In this document: positions 34,106 through 57,527 of the stretch, in pieces
Position numbering within the stretch: position 1 is the first letter of the stretch
Layout of the letters: the number at the start of each line of letters is the position of its first letter
NCBI RefSeq assembly: GCF_028368935.1
Contig: NZ_JAQNDK010000002.1
Location: 2,108,001-2,172,000 of the forward strand
Source: Sorangium aterium
Lineage (GTDB): Bacteria > Myxococcota_A > Polyangia > Polyangiales > Polyangiaceae
Direction of reading: 5' to 3'
Length of the DNA stretch: 64,000 nt
Program-made: the position numbers and the translations under genes
The notes under the pieces: generated by a model
What the model was told of the DNA's origin: nothing
The model's input: only the letters and a program-made list of their open reading frames with translations
The model's database searches: none

Positions 34106-34194
34106 GGTTCACCCCCGCGTGCGCGGGGACGACCCCATCGCCTCGAGCGCCTCGACGGTGCTGTCCGGTTCACCCCCGCGTGCGCGGGGACGAC
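34106..34194 (+). CRISPR. Two-repeat type I-E CRISPR remnant
   Basis: Two identical 28-base repeats, 34106-34133 and 34167-34194, begin GGTTCACCCCCGCG and contain the CCCCGCG-TG-CGCGGGG hairpin typical of type I-E arrays. They are separated by one 33-base spacer (34134-34166). I see no further repeat copy on either side, no AT-rich leader and no cas gene in the window. It is best read as an array remnant or a solitary mini-array. Confidence 0.8.
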
Positions 34195-34205
34195 CTCGGT
34201 TCTTG

Positions 34206-34648: not shown

Positions 34649-35334
34649 CCTCGACGAGGGCAGGGGAGCGCGCTGACACGGCCCCAGGAAAGGCCGCGAG
34701 CGTGCAGGCTCTACGGGTCTCGGCAGCATGGCCTGTCTGGCTCGTGGAGTGCACGGTCGAATTCTCGTAGTAGCCTCATCGCATGGTGCGTCGTGACGAG
34801 ATCGAGCCTGGACCCCGACCGCGGGGCGAGGGAGCGGTCTCACGCTGCACGTCTCCAGCGGGTGAGAGTCCCGTCCGGGTAAGCGCCGGAGCGCCCGGTA
34901 GCAGGCCCCAGGTTGGCGGGGGAGACCCCGCGGCCCGAGCGGGGCGTCGAAAGCCTCCACGGAGGGAGCAAGAACGCGGGCCGCAACATGAAGTGAAGCC
35001 TGCCGCCTCGACAGAGAAACAACGAGGGAGCCGAGCCGCGCATGCCACGGCGAAGGCCACGTCCGTCGCGCCGCAGTCCGGAGCAGAACGCGCGACGGGT
35101 CCCTCCGGGGTACAGGGCGCAGCACGCGTTCAAGGAGAGGTGCGGAACACGGGAGACCCGTCTGCGTTGCCGTCGTCGCGGCAAGGTGGCTCGTATAAGC
35201 CGAAGGTGAAGTCGAGCGCCGCGCAGCGGGAGTCCGAGGGGGCCGTAGTACCGTCGAGGGCCGCGACGAACAACGCGGTCGGAGGGAGAGGCCCCTGCGG
35301 TGGTCGCGTCGGTCGAGGAGGTAAGCGCGAGGGC

Positions 35335-35693
35335 ATGGCCGGCAGGACCGGTCCCAACCACCCCCGCGGGCGCGAGCCCGTGGACCAAGTGCGACAACTC
35401 CAACGCCGGCTGTGGGTCGCGGCCAAGCGGCATCCGGGGCGCCGGTTCCACGCGTTGTATGACCGCATCGCGAGGTGTGACGTCCTCGCGGAAGCGTGGA
35501 AGCGGGTGAAGCGGAACCGCGGTGCGGCGGGCGTCGATGCTCAGACGCTCGCCGACATCGAGCAGCACGGCGTGGAGCGCTTCCTTGAAGAGCTCCGCGT
35601 CGCGTTGCGCGCAGGCTCGTACCGGCCAGCAGCGGTGCTGCGCCGGTACATCCCGAAGGCTGACGGAAAGAAGCGGCCGCTAGGCATCCCGAC
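35335..35693 (+). pseudogene. ltrA: Group II intron reverse transcriptase, N-terminal fragment
   Basis: The frame from ATG 35335 reads through RT-0/RT-1 (WVAAKRHPGRRFHALYDRI, KRNRGAAGVDAQTL, RYIPKADGKKRPLGIPT) and then leaves the protein family immediately after the GGCATCCCGAC repeat at 35683-35693. The family continues, in frame, at 38296. The frame is also open upstream to 34783, but that part coincides with intron RNA structure. This half alone cannot be active. Confidence 0.75.
35683..35693 (+). repeat. Left copy of 11-bp direct repeat flanking the recombinase element
   Basis: GGCATCCCGAC here encodes G-I-P of the RT motif RPLGIPT. The identical right copy is at 38296-38306. Both copies are in the same RT phase, being 2,613 bases (871 codons) apart. 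Confidence 0.85.
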
Positions 35694-35731
35694 ACCATCG
35701 ACAAACTGCGCCACGTGCAGCACCCCCTTCG

Positions 35732-36175
35732 GACTACGTCACCGTCACGCTGCCCATCCACCCTCTGAAGGGACAGCGGCTTCCTGTGGTCTCGTCCGTG
35801 CGAGGCCAGGATGGGCGGCGGTACGTCGACGCCGAGCATCCGCAGGGCTGGACGATCCGGCTTCCCATCGAGTGGACCGATCGAGCTGGTCCAGGGGTGA
35901 CCCCGCGGTGGCACGGCCGCGAAGTCCGTCTGGATGCTCGCGGTTTGCTTGAGCTCGCTCGCGCCGTGAGGACCGCCCTGGACCTCCACCGAGAGGAGCC
36001 CAATACACAGACAGTGGCATCCGCCAAAGCGAGCCAACCCGCCCATGCATCGGCCGAAGACCCCTCCGTGGTCGACGCTCCCCGCAACAATGCAGCGAGA
36101 TCTGCTGGGCGCGTGGGCCACGCTCGTCCTCAAGATCCTCCGCGTCGAGCCCACACCCGTCGAGGCCGGCCATGA
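35732..36175 (+). CDS. DUF5372-like accessory protein of the recombinase element
   Basis: The frame reads DYVTVTLPIHPLKGQRLPVV from 35732, then RYVDAEHPQGWTIRLPIEWTDR, a pattern I associate with the DUF5372 proteins next to element-borne recombinases. There is no ATG at the domain start. A GTG at 35786 is available but would cut the conserved beginning, so the true start is uncertain. The stop overlaps the recombinase ATG (ATGA), indicating coupled translation. Its role in integration is unknown. Confidence 0.6.
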   Translation, partial: DYVTVTLPIHPLKGQRLPVVSSVRGQDGRRYVDAEHPQGWTIRLPIEWTDRAGPGVTPRWHGREVRLDARGLLELARAVRTALDLHREEPNTQTVASAKASQPAHASAEDPSVVDAPRNNAARSAGRVGHARPQDPPRRAHTRRGRP

Positions 36176-38295
36176 GCGACAAGATCCAGCCGCAGCATCT
36201 GGAGCGTCGTGCGATCGTCTACATGCGCCAGTCCACGCTCCGCCAAGTCTACGAGCATCCTGAGTCTACGTCCCGGCAATACGCGCTGCAACAGCGTGCG
36301 ATCGCGCTTGGCTGGCCTGCCGACCGTATCGACGTGATCGACGAGGACGTTGGTCAGAGCGCCACAAGCGCCCAGTGGCGCACCGGCTTCCAGCGGCTGG
36401 CCGATGATGTAGCGCACGGACGCATCGGCGCCATTTTCGCGCTGGAAGTCTCACGGCTCGCCCGCTGCTCTGCGGACTGGTACCGGCTGCTCGACTTGTG
36501 CGGTTTCGCCGATGTGATTCTCGCTGATGAGCACAGCGTCTACACTCCACGCGATTCCAACGATCGGCTGCTCCTTGGACTTAAGGGTACGATGAGCGAG
36601 GCAGAGCAAATGTGGATGCGCTTGCGACTGCACGGCGGAAAGCTCAGCAAGGCGCGTCGCGGAGAGCTCTTTCTTCACGCTGCAACCGGCTATGAATGGG
36701 ATGAAGCTGCGTGCCGCTTCCGATTCGATCCGGACGAGCACATCCAGCGTGCTGTCCGCCTCGTCTTCGAACGCTTCCGCCTCGATGGGAGCGCCTACGC
36801 TGTGATGCGGTACTTCGCCGACCGTGGACTCAAGATGCCGGCGCGCAGCATCGCGACACGCGAGCTAAGCTGGGTGCCTCCGCGGCATAGTACGATCCTT
36901 CGCATGCTTCATAATCCGACGTACGCCGGTGCGTACGTCTTTGGTCGACATGAGGAACGCATCGCCCTTGTTGACGGTCAACTGCGTCGCCGCCGCGTGA
37001 CCCGTCTGACGCAAGAGGCATGGAAGACATGCATTCGCGATCGCCATCCGGCCTACATTCCATGGGAGGAATTCATGGCCAACCAACGAAAGCTGCATAA
37101 CAACCGGACCCATCAAACATCGCCGGATCAGCACGGGGCCGCTCGTGAAGGACCGGCCTTGCTCCAAGGCCTCGCGTTGTGTGGCAAGTGTGGTCACCGC
37201 ATGGCCACGAATTATCAAGGCACGCTGCGACGCGCACACTATGAATGCCGAGCCCCGATCACATATGCCGGCGGTCGGCATGTGTGCTGGACCGTTTCGG
37301 CGCGGGCCATCGATGAGGCGGTCGCGAGGCTCTTTCTGGAGGCGGCCCATCCGCCTGATATCGAAATTGGTCTGGCTGTCGTCCGCGAAGCAGAGCGACA
37401 GTCAAGCGAGGTGAACCGCCAGTGGAAGCTGCGACTGGAGCGGGCGCGGTATGAGGCGCGGCTGGCGGAGCGTCGGTATAAGGCAGTCGACCCGGACAAT
37501 CGCGTCGTCGCGCGCACGCTTGAACGCGATTGGAATGAAAAGCTTCGCGAGGTCGAGGCGTTGGAACGAGAGCACCAGGAGATCTGCCGACGCGAAAAGG
37601 TCAATATCACCGACGAGGACCGTCTCCGCATCTTGTCGCTTACCAGAGACCTCACTCAGGTCTGGAACGCGCCATCCACCACGCACGCCGAGCGGAAGAA
37701 TCTTCTCCGCATGCTCGTCCAGCAAGTGACCTTGAGCCCCATCGAGGTTCCTGCGCGCATGACCCGCGTGCAACTGCTCTGGAAGACGGGCGTGGTCAGC
37801 GACTTCACCGTTCCGCGACGCAGCAAGGACATGGCTGTGGCAACGCCTCCCGAAGCGATCGAGCTTATCCAAGAGCTTGTCTTTGCTCAGAAGCCCGACT
37901 GGGTGATCGCCGATGAGCTCAACCGTCGCGGCCTGCGCACGGGACGCAGCGCGCGGTGGAGCGCGATGTCTGTCCGCTGGATCCGCTGGCGCCGCGGCCT
38001 GCGGCGCCCGGGCCTCCCGCCCCCCTCCGTACGTCGGCCGGACCAGCGCGCCGACGGCCTGTATTCCATCCACGGCGTCGCTGCGCGCTTTCAGGTCACC
38101 GAGCACGTCGTGCGCTACTGGGTCGCAAAAGGCTGGCTGAAAAGCGTCGAGGGGGGCGGCCTCGGTCGCACTTTGTGGTTCAAGCTCGACCGGGCAACGA
38201 TCAAACGTCTGAACGAGGCCAAGGCCTGCGGCTACGGCCCGCGACCGCGAAGACATTCCCAAACCCGCGTGCAGGAGAAGAAGCAGTATGCGTAG
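36172..38295 (+). CDS. Large serine recombinase
   Basis: This 707-residue protein has an N-terminal resolvase domain (AIVYMRQSTLRQVYEHPEST, nucleophile Ser21; LEVSRLARCSADWYRLL), a recombinase domain (about 165-300, with RHSTILRMLHNPTYAGAYVFGR), a zinc ribbon (ALCGKCGHRMATN, later YECRA and CWTV), a coiled-coil region near 415-480, and a C-terminal MerR-like helix-turn-helix (GVAARFQVTEHVVRYWVAKGWL). It is intact. A GAGG site precedes the ATG. It probably mobilises the element in which it lies and inserted it into the group II intron RT. Confidence 0.92.
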   Translation: MSDKIQPQHLERRAIVYMRQSTLRQVYEHPESTSRQYALQQRAIALGWPADRIDVIDEDVGQSATSAQWRTGFQRLADDVAHGRIGAIFALEVSRLARCSADWYRLLDLCGFADVILADEHSVYTPRDSNDRLLLGLKGTMSEAEQMWMRLRLHGGKLSKARRGELFLHAATGYEWDEAACRFRFDPDEHIQRAVRLVFERFRLDGSAYAVMRYFADRGLKMPARSIATRELSWVPPRHSTILRMLHNPTYAGAYVFGRHEERIALVDGQLRRRRVTRLTQEAWKTCIRDRHPAYIPWEEFMANQRKLHNNRTHQTSPDQHGAAREGPALLQGLALCGKCGHRMATNYQGTLRRAHYECRAPITYAGGRHVCWTVSARAIDEAVARLFLEAAHPPDIEIGLAVVREAERQSSEVNRQWKLRLERARYEARLAERRYKAVDPDNRVVARTLERDWNEKLREVEALEREHQEICRREKVNITDEDRLRILSLTRDLTQVWNAPSTTHAERKNLLRMLVQQVTLSPIEVPARMTRVQLLWKTGVVSDFTVPRRSKDMAVATPPEAIELIQELVFAQKPDWVIADELNRRGLRTGRSARWSAMSVRWIRWRRGLRRPGLPPPSVRRPDQRADGLYSIHGVAARFQVTEHVVRYWVAKGWLKSVEGGGLGRTLWFKLDRATIKRLNEAKACGYGPRPRRHSQTRVQEKKQYA

Positions 38296-39300
38296 GGCAT
38301 CCCGACGATCCGGGACCGGGTGGTGCAGATGGCGGCGAAGCTTGTGCTGGAGCCGATCTTCGAGGCGGACTTTCGTCCGAACTCGTACGGCTTCCGGCCT
38401 CGTCGCAGCGCGACAGAGGCGCTGGAGACCCTCCGCAAGCTGGGAGCTCGCGGAGGCAACCACGTCCTGGACGCGGACATCCGCGACTACTTCGGCAGCA
38501 TCGACCACGACAAGCTGATGAAGCTGGTCGAGCGACGCGTCTCGGATCGGCGGGTACTCAAGCTGCTGCGGCAGTGGCTCCGGTGCGGGGTGATGGACGA
38601 GGGGCGCGAAGTAGCGACGCTCTCTGGGACACCGCAGGGCGGCGTGATCTCGCCGCTCTTGTCGAACATCTTCCTGCACGTGCTCGATGCGGCGTGGGAG
38701 CGCCACGGTGCCCACCTGGGCACGCTGGTGCGCTACGCGGACGACTTCGTGATCGTGTGCAGCACGAGGTCGGCGTGCGAGCAGGCCGAGAAGCGCGTGC
38801 GCGAGGTGCTCGCGCGGCTCGGTCTGGAGCTCCACCCGGACAAGACGAGGCGGGTGGATCTCTCCTGGGGCAAGGAGGGCTTCGACTTCCTCGGCTGCCA
38901 CCTGCGCAAGCGCATGAGCGGGCCGATCTGGGAGCAGTCACGCCGGCGCGTGTACTTTCTCCAGCGCTGGCCTTCTCAGCGCAGTATGAGGCGGGTGCGG
39001 CAGCGCGTGAAGGAGCTGACCGGTCGAGCCAGGAACGGCGTGAAGGACGTGCGGGTGCTGATCCGCGACCTGAACCCGGTGCTGCGCGGCTGGGGCAACT
39101 ACTTCCGCACCGGGAATGCGGCGGACAAGTTCAACCAGATCGACAGCTACGTGTGGCGGCGGCTCTGTGGCTTCCTCGTGAAGCGCAAGGGGCGCAACCT
39201 GCGGGCGGGCGAGACCGAGGGTTGGACGCGCGACTTCTTCGTCGAAGGCCACGGGCTGTACCGCCTGCGCGGGACCATCCAGTACCCGGAGGCTGCGTAA
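38296..39300 (+). pseudogene. ltrA: Group II intron reverse transcriptase, C-terminal fragment
   Basis: From the right repeat the frame resumes GIPTIRDRVVQMAAKLVLEPIF and includes RT domains 2-7 with SYGFRPRRSATEAL, GTPQGGVISPLLSNIFLH and the catalytic RYADDFVIV, then the maturase X domain (GWGNYFRTGNAADKF, VWRRLCGFLVKRKG). There is no HNH endonuclease at the C-terminus. An ATG at 38329 could let this piece be translated alone, but it lacks the N-terminal fingers. It is inactive unless the element excises. Confidence 0.8.
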
Positions 39301-39325
39301 TGCAGCGGCCCGAGAGACCACCGGT

Positions 39326-39359
39326 AAGCCGTGTGCGGGAAATCCGCATGCACGGTTTG
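39326..39359 (+). ncRNA. Group II intron domain V
   Basis: This 34-base hairpin begins AAGCCGTGTGCGGG, has a GAAA-type loop and returns as TCCGCATGCACGGTTTG. That is the conserved shape and sequence of the ribozyme catalytic domain V, including the AGC triad. Domain VI follows at about 39389-39407. Confidence 0.8.
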
Positions 39360-39422
39360 AAAGGGGGTCTTGCCCTTCATCGCCCGGCTTCACAGCCGGG
39401 CAGGAGAAAGTAGGATCTACCA

Positions 39423-39854
39423 ATGGATCAGAAGGATTCGCCGATCGCGGAGCGTCGCTACAGCGTGGAAGGTCAGCCTGGGCGAGAAATCATCTTGAAG
39501 ATTGGGCGGCCATTCGAGGTGAGCCCTCCTGGGGTGGACTGGGCGTGTCCCGTCGTCTTCGAGGGCCTGGACGACGGATGCAGCAAGTGCGTGTACGGGA
39601 TCGACGGTGTGCAGGCGATCCAGCTCGCGATGCAGTACGCGCGCAATCAGCTGGAGGCCTCCGGGCTGCAGCTCCTGTGGATGAACGAGGAGCCGGGCGA
39701 TCTGGGGCTCCCGCGCCCGATCGAGAGCACGCTCGGCGTATGGTTTCAGCGCGAGCTCGAGCAGATGGTGGAGAGTGAGCAACGCAGGATGCACGAGATC
39801 GTGCTCAAGCTCGGCGAGGTGCGCGAGCGGCGCCGGAAATCGACCGGAGCCTAG
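39423..39854 (+). CDS. DUF6968-like hypothetical protein
   Basis: This 143-residue cytoplasmic protein reads IAERRYSVEGQPG, then LKIGRPFEVSPPGVDWACPV and a GIDGVQAIQLAMQYARNQL helix, which resembles the DUF6968 family. The C-terminal 40 residues are a charged helix. Its ATG begins two bases after the inferred 3' end of the group II intron, so the intron sits in its leader and its expression may depend on splicing. The function is unknown. Confidence 0.75.
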   Translation: MDQKDSPIAERRYSVEGQPGREIILKIGRPFEVSPPGVDWACPVVFEGLDDGCSKCVYGIDGVQAIQLAMQYARNQLEASGLQLLWMNEEPGDLGLPRPIESTLGVWFQRELEQMVESEQRRMHEIVLKLGEVRERRRKSTGA

Positions 39855-55679: not shown

Positions 55680-57527
55680 TCAGAGCAAGCGCGCGAAGCG
55701 CTCGATGCGCGCCCGCACGCGCGGCTCGCCCAGCACCGCCATGACCTCGGTCAGATCAGGGCTGTTCCGGGTCCCGCAGACCGCGACCCGGACCACCATC
55801 GAGACGTCGCCGACATGGCCCTTCCACGACTCGGGAGAGGCCTTGTACTGCTTCACCTCGCCAGCGTAGCCCAGCGCTACCCCGATGCTCCGGACCTTCT
55901 CGAACCACGCCTCCTTCGAGTCGGCGGGATCGAAGACATGGAGCATCTGCTTCAGCACCGCCCAGCGATCTGCCTCCGGGACGTTCTCGGGGAAATCGAA
56001 CGCGTCGACGCCGCCGTAGAGCTCGTCGTAGAAGAAGAAGAGCTGGGGCCGCAGGTCGGGCCAGGTGGTGATGCGCTTGTTCGACTTCTTGCCGCCGCGC
56101 TCGATGCCGAGCGCGCGCTTCGTGTACTCCGGATCTCGCTCCATCAGCGCGGCGAGCTCCTTGTCGTATTCCCTGGCCCAGTCGAGGCCCTGGGCATAGA
56201 CGTCCTCGGCGCTCATGCGGCTCACGACCGCCTGGCTCACGCTCTTCAGCTTCACCATGTCGCTCAGCGCGCCGCCGGGGGCGAGCTTGTTGAGCTTGAG
56301 GGGGAAGGCGGAATAGGGCTTGTCGGGGTTCGCCTTGCGCCAGTCCTCGAACGCGGAGTTGGCGATGTTGAGCAGGTACTCGATGGTGCCCGTCTCCGGC
56401 ACGCCGATCTCCCGGTAATAGGCGATGTTCGCCTCGGGATCCTTGCGCTTGCTCAGCTTGCGCCGCGCGTCCGAGACCTTCGTCTCGCCCGTCTCCGGGT
56501 CGACCTCCTCCGCGCGATCGAGCTTCTGGATGGGCGGGACGTGGGCGTACTCGACCGGCCTGAAGCCGAGCGTGCGGAAGAGCTGCAGGTGGAGCGGCAT
56601 CGACGAGATCCACTCGTCGCCTCGGATCACGTGCGTCGTGCGCATCAGGTGATCGTCGATCGCGTGGGCGAAGTGGTAGGTCGGGATGCCGTCCGACTTG
56701 AGGAGGATGGTGTCGAGATCGTTGACGGGCATCGAGATGACGCCCTTCACGCCGTCCTTCCACTCGACGCGGCCGGAGACGTCGTCCGGGGCGCGCAGCC
56801 GGAGCACGAACGGGGTGCCGCCCGCGAGCGCCTCCTTCACCCGGGCGAGCGGCGCGTCGCGCCATTTCGCCCACCGGCCGTGGACCCCGGGCTTCACCGT
56901 GAGGGCCATCTGCTCCTGCCGGATGGCGTCGAGCTCCTCGACCGTGCAGAAGCAGGGGTAGGCGAAGCCGCGGCGGATGAGGTCGATCGCGTAATCCCGG
57001 TAGATCTCGACACGCTCCGTCTGGATATAGGGGCCGTAGCTGCCCTGCTGCACGAACTCGCCTCGCGACGACGCGCCTCCGTCCTTCGCCGGCGCGCGGA
57101 GCACGCCCTCTTGAGGCGAGAGATCGAAGCGCGCGAGGGAGTCGACGATGGTGTCGAGCGCGCCGGGGATGGCGCGCTTCACGTCGGTGTCCTCGAGGCG
57201 GAGGTAGAAGACGCCCTCGCTCTGGAGCGACAGCCGCTTGTTGATGAGCGACACGAAGATGCCGCCAATGTGCATGAACCCGGTCGGGCTCGGCGCGTAG
57301 CGGGTGACCATCGCGCCTTTGGGCAGCGCGCGCCGGGGATAGCGCGCCTCGTACTCCTCGGGCCGCCTGGCCGACGCCGCGGCGTCGCCGAAGAGGAGGC
57401 GCACGAGCTCGTCGCGGTCCTCTCCGGGGCCCGGTTCGCGGACGGTGACGGGAAGCGTCGTCTCGTTCGGGGCCTGCTTGTCCATGAGGGCGCGTCGCTC
57501 CTGGTCTGACATCGGGCGGGCAGCCAT
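55680..57527 (-). CDS. gltX: Glutamate--tRNA ligase
   Basis: This is a 615-residue class I synthetase. The HIGH-type motif is [21 protein letters not shown] and the KMSKS-type motif is [11 protein letters not shown]; between them lie [17 protein letters not shown] and [12 protein letters not shown]. It is longer than the usual 470-500 residues, with a 75-residue N-terminal extension and a large insert, like the long GltX variants of some anaerobes and myxobacteria. ATG 57527 is used; MSDQ at 57512 is an alternative start. It charges tRNA-Glu in the cytoplasm. Confidence 0.93.

Follow-up and report, generated by a model that had tools for sequence, protein, structure and literature searches.

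In a 64,000-nucleotide stretch of the Sorangium aterium genome (NCBI RefSeq assembly GCF_028368935.1, contig NZ_JAQNDK010000002.1, positions 2,108,001 to 2,172,000; hereafter the window), the reverse transcriptase (RT) of a group II intron is split at its Gly-Ile-Pro codons (window 35683/38296) by a 2.6-kb element encoding a small DUF5372 protein and a 707-aa large serine recombinase (LSR). Comparison of this element with its relatives indicates that it is, in all probability, an autonomous serine-recombinase transposon. It would belong to a family of minimal LSR elements that have specialised in conserved motifs within the genes by which other mobile elements transpose. The features concerned are:

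34786 to 39422 (ends approximate), + strand: group II intron bearing the interrupted RT (three intron copies compared; Rfam)
35389 to 35691, + strand: RT/maturase part 5' of the break, ending in Gly-Ile-Pro (tblastn with the intact RT)
35686 to 38303, + strand: mobile element of 2618 bp, three genomic copies with 0 mismatches
35686 to 35690, + strand: left junction, crossover interval ATCCC in GGCATCCCGAC (35683-35693), from the window versus the C1 copy
35744 to 35959, + strand: DUF5372 (PF17342) domain of the small protein encoded at the element's left end, frame open to 36175 (Pfam)
36172 to 38295, + strand: LSR, 707 aa, with a putative C-terminal MerR/BldC-like helix-turn-helix (HTH) (Pfam)
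38299 to 38303, + strand: right junction, crossover interval ATCCC in GGCATCCCGAC (38296-38306), directly 3' of the LSR stop codon, from the window versus the C1 copy
38305 to 39297, + strand: RT/maturase part 3' of the break (RVT_1, GIIM), 100% identical to the intact copy

Judged from three copies of it, the intron starts with GTGCG and ends with CTACCA before ATGG, these ends being approximate. Rfam detected group-II-D1D4-4 at 34856-34991, Intron_gpII (domain V) at 39324-39380 (43.2 bits against a cut-off of 40) and, under the gathering score of 49, group-II-D1D4-6 at 35005-35111 (40.2 bits). An RT/maturase together with a domain V RNA identifies the host as a group II intron. At the break, the RT translation reads KKRPLGIPT upstream and GIPTIRDRVVQ downstream. 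The downstream part has Pfam matches to RVT_1 and GIIM; the upstream open reading frame (ORF) gave no Pfam match and was recognised by comparison with the intact copy.

The 13.47 Mb genome contains eight matches to the window LSR, of which three, those of the window, C5 and C1 copies, are identical across all 707 residues. These three element copies have 0 mismatches over 2618 bp, yet lie in three differing introns, each within the RT at the Gly-Ile-Pro-Thr codons. The C5 copy's intron is of the same family as the window intron, with 18 mismatches in 2031 bp. The C1 copy's intron is of another class, its RT being 33-34% identical to the window RT in the C-terminal part and cut at the same codons. 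The C5 copy is immediately followed by an uninterrupted intron, whose RT is open over 637 aa and matches TIGR04416 with 417.6 bits (cut-off 300). The rejoined flanks of the window element match this RT with 0 mismatches over 1800 bp (1 in 2031 bp in a longer comparison), and the split is therefore real. A sequence-only reading of the window had proposed that the element splits a group II intron RT and had suggested searching for a relative of the rejoined sequence and for the same element ends elsewhere. The split is borne out, the exact relative is present in the same genome, and the same ends occur at two other genomic places, each in an RT at the same codons; the match and the shared ends together support its view of one mobile element disabling another. 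Read most simply, the copies would represent three separate, recent insertions with an empty site in the same genome. The C5 locus thus holds a tandem of introns, one copy beginning directly where the previous one ends. The 20-kb C1 locus (L018) is a cluster of mobile pieces, containing several RT pieces, an IstB-like piece, an IS66 fragment identified by eye and, ~11 kb from the identical element, a second LSR element that is 54% identical.

The ends of the element are certain because the two other identical copies give the same ends. Identity between the C1 and window copies ends at ATCCC on both sides, with a left junction of GGG-ATCCC-GACACC and a right junction of GGGC-ATCCC-CACGG in C1. 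Only ATCCC (35686-35690 = 38299-38303) must therefore be common to element and target. With attL and attR sharing a short common core and with fixed ends, the insertion has the form of an LSR element. The sequence-only reading had placed the ends at 11-bp repeats, GGCATCCCGAC at 35683-35693 and 38296-38306, 871 codons (2613 bp) apart. This spacing was confirmed, but the repeat was rejected as the recombination core, since the C1 copy shares just ATCCC and leaves a core of 5 bp at most. The window's 11-bp repeat arises because the joined ends of the element resemble the target, and is mostly attP/attB similarity. By itself it is weak evidence and not rare by count: the exact 11-mer occurs a third time in the window, at 56680 on the minus strand, and with up to one mismatch there are 6 matches against 2.89 expected, a number reached in 10 of 100 shuffles. 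The in-phase spacing had also been taken as a sign that recombination would rebuild the RT. We rejected it as a sign of reversibility, since precise excision restores the frame whatever the length of the element.

The LSR has Pfam Resolvase, Recombinase and Zn_ribbon_recom domains, all above cut-off, which place it among the large serine recombinases. Its closest solved chain by sequence is YokA. MerR_1 matched just below cut-off, and HTH modules were predicted at the C-terminus (mean pLDDT 83.1, pTM 0.46) with weak fold matches; at low significance, this suggests that the C-terminal region may be MerR/BldC-like. The DUF5372 protein was matched at E 8.4e-7 (29.4 bits against a Pfam cut-off of 25), and a DUF5372-like stretch was found upstream of the LSR in 71 of the 106 loci described below (lenient tblastn, E up to 1; overlapping loci counted). 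Structure prediction gives the protein a small beta barrel and a helix (mean pLDDT 78.8, pTM 0.49). The fold neighbours are weak (a ribosomal protein and SH3/Tudor-like domains), with none at E up to 0.001. That the protein might serve as a directionality factor is a guess.

To survey relatives, we scanned one genome per species, yielding 66 stretches and 53 loci. In the window's phylum, 21 of 377 genomes had a match at E up to 1e-100, the own genome included. Among 72,556 plasmid records, 424 contained an LSR relative (E up to 1e-60) at 813 places, the best of which were all below 60% identity; 10 of the 424 were fetched, picked for spread of organisms. The family is common on rhizobial plasmids, the commonest names being Rhizobium, Sinorhizobium and Bradyrhizobium. 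The total was 106 loci including the own genome, or 95 after removal of 11 that were overlapping or fragmentary, and 54 of these were testable, having a near-complete LSR, a left flank of at least 600 bases and a right flank of at least 120. Using tblastn (E up to 0.05) without composition correction, we searched the flanks for two halves of a single gene whose break coincides with the element. This automatic rule gave splits in 34 of 95 loci and 28 of the 54 testable ones, and seven further testable splits (L103, L104, L106, L107, L035, L105, L111) were accepted on reading the flanks. Split genes were thus found in 35 of 54 testable loci. The targets were RT (11), istB (10), IS66 orf2 (5), IS66 tnp (3), IS91-like (2), IS3 orfB (2), rve (1) and IS21 istA (1).

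The RT is cut at or beside the Gly-Ile-Pro codons in Chloroflexota (L025, L028, L030, L045), on cyanobacterial plasmids of Nostocales (L103, L104) and on betaproteobacterial plasmids of Paraburkholderia and Cupriavidus (L107, L108). In all eight the LSR is antisense to the RT, unlike in the window family. In the two cyanobacterial elements, an additional antisense gene with a hypothetical annotation lies between the LSR and the right end (L103:4657-5616, L104:4657-5616). We considered whether all lineages that target RTs share a palindromic AT core and rejected this: such a core is exact in L030 only, with L025 and L028 consistent and the window compatible, but L045 needs a later change and the crossover of L107 and L108 is seemingly a few bases away. 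Other LSR branches split IS21 istB or istA, IS66 orf2 or tnp, and IS3/rve or IS91-like transposases. Pfam matches above cut-off were obtained for IstB (L037, L038), IS66 Orf2 (L088), both halves of IS66 Tnp (L096), rve_3 (C-half of L084) and the IS91 zinc domain (L097). In a search with a composite query, all six genomes examined contained an istB relative without a stop, and five also one with an internal stop, possibly an LSR-interrupted copy. A sense-strand istB insertion at L034 was rejected, as istB C-halves on both sides mark a rearranged locus. Repeats of 8-13 bp at the istB junctions were likewise rejected as target duplications, since the aligned ends fit attP-attB similarity or chance.

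On inspection, the RT Gly-Ile-Pro codons (GGN-ATH-CCN) and the IstB Gly-Glu/Asp-Pro codons both give a roughly symmetric GG-n-NN-n-CC site. A GTGCAGTATGAA-like motif (at least 9 of 12 bases) was present at 16 of 37 right ends, compared to 2.1% of shuffled ends, and at 5 of 37 left ends, compared to 1.9%; these counts are descriptive, the ends being related by descent. The window element's own ends match GTGCAGTATGAA at 8 of 12 bases.

Target labels were then placed on an LSR tree of 61 rows with seven labels, 26 rows being labelled unknown. The half-only loci L034, L087 and L092 were included, rve was joined with IS3, L035 was left unlabelled, and L030, L104 and L106 were too short and are absent. 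The labels required 16 changes, compared to a mean of 32.1 after shuffling, with 16 or fewer reached in 0 of 200 shuffles, with near-copies favouring such clustering. The RT label accounted for four changes, and four are forced by well-supported branches. This clustering suggests that targets are largely inherited by clade and have switched several times. The root is a midpoint root, and the tree does not separate RT as an old target from RT reached repeatedly.

Several points weigh against a family specialised on transposition genes. A split was not demonstrated in 19 of the 54 testable loci: five have one half only (L034, L044, L087, L097, L109), and in 14 the flank search confirmed neither half (L004, L005, L026, L027, L029, L043, L080, L081, L083, L090, L093, L098, L100, L102). 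Among the latter, L004 is the 54% identical LSR of the same genome, and L005 and L093 have an uncounted match to one IS91-like or RT half. The reference halves were drawn from loci of the same set with no unrelated-locus control, and five of the 28 automatic splits (L024, L077, L084, L088, L096) supplied their own reference halves; these splits therefore rest on reading both flanks and on Pfam where it matches. The 35 splits are not independent: they include the three own-genome copies, and nine of the ten istB cases are from alphaproteobacteria (six Bradyrhizobium), the tenth being from a proteobacterial metagenome-assembled genome. Pfam matches were below cut-off for HTH_21 and rve in the N-half of L084 and for rve in L035, and there were none in the IS91-like N-terminal stretches (L024, L077), the L105 stretch, the IstA C-part or the L045 RT N-part. 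Several target assignments thus rest on reading or weak matches.

Could the element be an ordinary LSR element of relaxed specificity, whose insertions into transposition genes are seen because they are harmless and survive? The 14 loci lying in no recognised mobile gene fit this, including L090, L100 and L102 of one genome, three closely similar copies of a more distant relative (LSR 36% identical) with dissimilar flanks and no DUF5372 hit; this branch perhaps has looser targeting. In favour of specialisation, the same codons are struck repeatedly. The RT Gly-Ile-Pro region is hit in four places of the LSR tree, and within one clade most rows hit istB at Gly-Glu/Asp-Pro, a pattern that surviving random insertions would not give. 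Harmlessness may nevertheless be why such targets are favoured. We consider relaxed specificity improbable as the whole explanation. As a separate observation, L081 and L101 (G280 contig 234) carry two different LSR genes of the family in tandem, ~1 kb apart.

A programmed switch, with the element kept so that cued excision restores the RT, would resemble skin and fdxN, prophage-like elements that interrupt host genes and are excised by LSRs in development. In both cases an LSR element lies in a gene and precise repair is possible in principle, and the best NCBIfam match of the window LSR is XisF of the fdxN element, though its 66.7 bits against a cut-off of 375 fall short of equivalence to XisF. 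The window element, however, is multi-copy and interrupts the intron RT of another mobile element rather than a host gene, the targets vary between branches, and three copies per genome look like spread, not regulation, making a switch very unlikely. Equally hard to credit is a single jump followed by retrohoming of the intron, which would have multiplied the element as a passenger rather than as an independent transposon: inserts in intron ORFs can be carried along and two of the three copies are in one intron family, but the elements are identical while the two introns differ at 18 positions in 2031 bp, and gene conversion could explain this pair but hardly the C1 copy, whose different intron class and loss of identity at ATCCC on both sides largely refute the idea.

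A family specialised on the transposition genes of other elements remains the reading we favour. Under it, the LSR would recombine a circular form, whose joined ends make up attP, with an attB formed by the RT Gly-Ile-Pro DNA (GGN-ATH-CCN), crossing over within ATCCC; the circle and the chemistry are inferred. Insertion would kill the entered RT, and intron mobility would probably be lost in cis. The insert need not stop splicing, since the intron RNA domains found by Rfam lie outside the element; with the insert in the ORF part of the intron these domains are kept, and an RT left intact at another place could act in trans. Precise excision is plausible for an LSR, and DUF5372 or the C-terminal HTH may have a role in directionality. 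Over time, the lineage would shift among conserved motifs of transposition genes, possibly because these offer multi-copy sites harmless to the cell.

At window 34783-39426, the intron itself immediately follows an ATG and, with its 3' end, gives a new ATG to the DUF6968 gene downstream (39423-39854). Shortly before the intron, at 34106-34195, are two CRISPR repeat copies with one spacer-sized gap between them; we take the repeat to be type I-E-like.

That LSRs aim at conserved genes and that some elements prefer other elements is already known. Transposons of the Tn5053 family likewise prefer sites of other mobile elements, but they use DDE transposases and target res sites, whereas the window element combines an LSR with protein-coding motifs. 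The term 'res site hunter' for them is used in PMC7765201. According to the main text of Durrant et al. 2022 (PMC10083194), LSRs target conserved genes such as Mg chelatase/protease and prolyl isomerase. The window element shares with these the LSR domains and a short core in conserved coding sequence, but the targets of its family are the transposition genes of other mobile elements, and that main text has 0 mentions of IstB or reverse transcriptase. The same text gives DUF4368 as typical of the multi-targeting LSR clade; unlike a typical member, the window LSR has no Pfam match to DUF4368 at E 0.01, an absence that is not decisive because 63% of the clade carry the domain. In public plasmid annotation, the same genes appear as 'recombinase family protein' with DUF5372 or Y4bD/Y4pK and DUF6788 neighbours, and in the 10 plasmid records examined the annotation describes neither the element nor its target. 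Within the listings and abstract openings of the open-access literature searched, we found no report of a lineage of LSRs that targets the genes for RTs and transposases, nor the word DUF5372 in that literature.

Together, these comparisons incline us, by a small margin, towards a broader view, in which minimal LSR transposons form a widespread lineage whose niche is the transposition genes of other mobile elements, the same RT Gly-Ile-Pro codons are targeted in several separate branches and in both orientations, introns and insertion sequences are naturally held in check by the insertions, perhaps reversibly, and the DUF5372 protein and the fused MerR/BldC-like domain are parts of the recombination machinery. 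If true, this would show a site-specific integrase becoming a multi-copy transposon without harm to the cell, and would reveal a standing force switching off other mobile elements. It would also suggest functions that could be tested for the functionally uncharacterised DUF5372 family. Since the target changes map onto the LSR tree, the family would provide a natural series for studying how the attB specificity of LSRs changes, a matter relevant to genome engineering.

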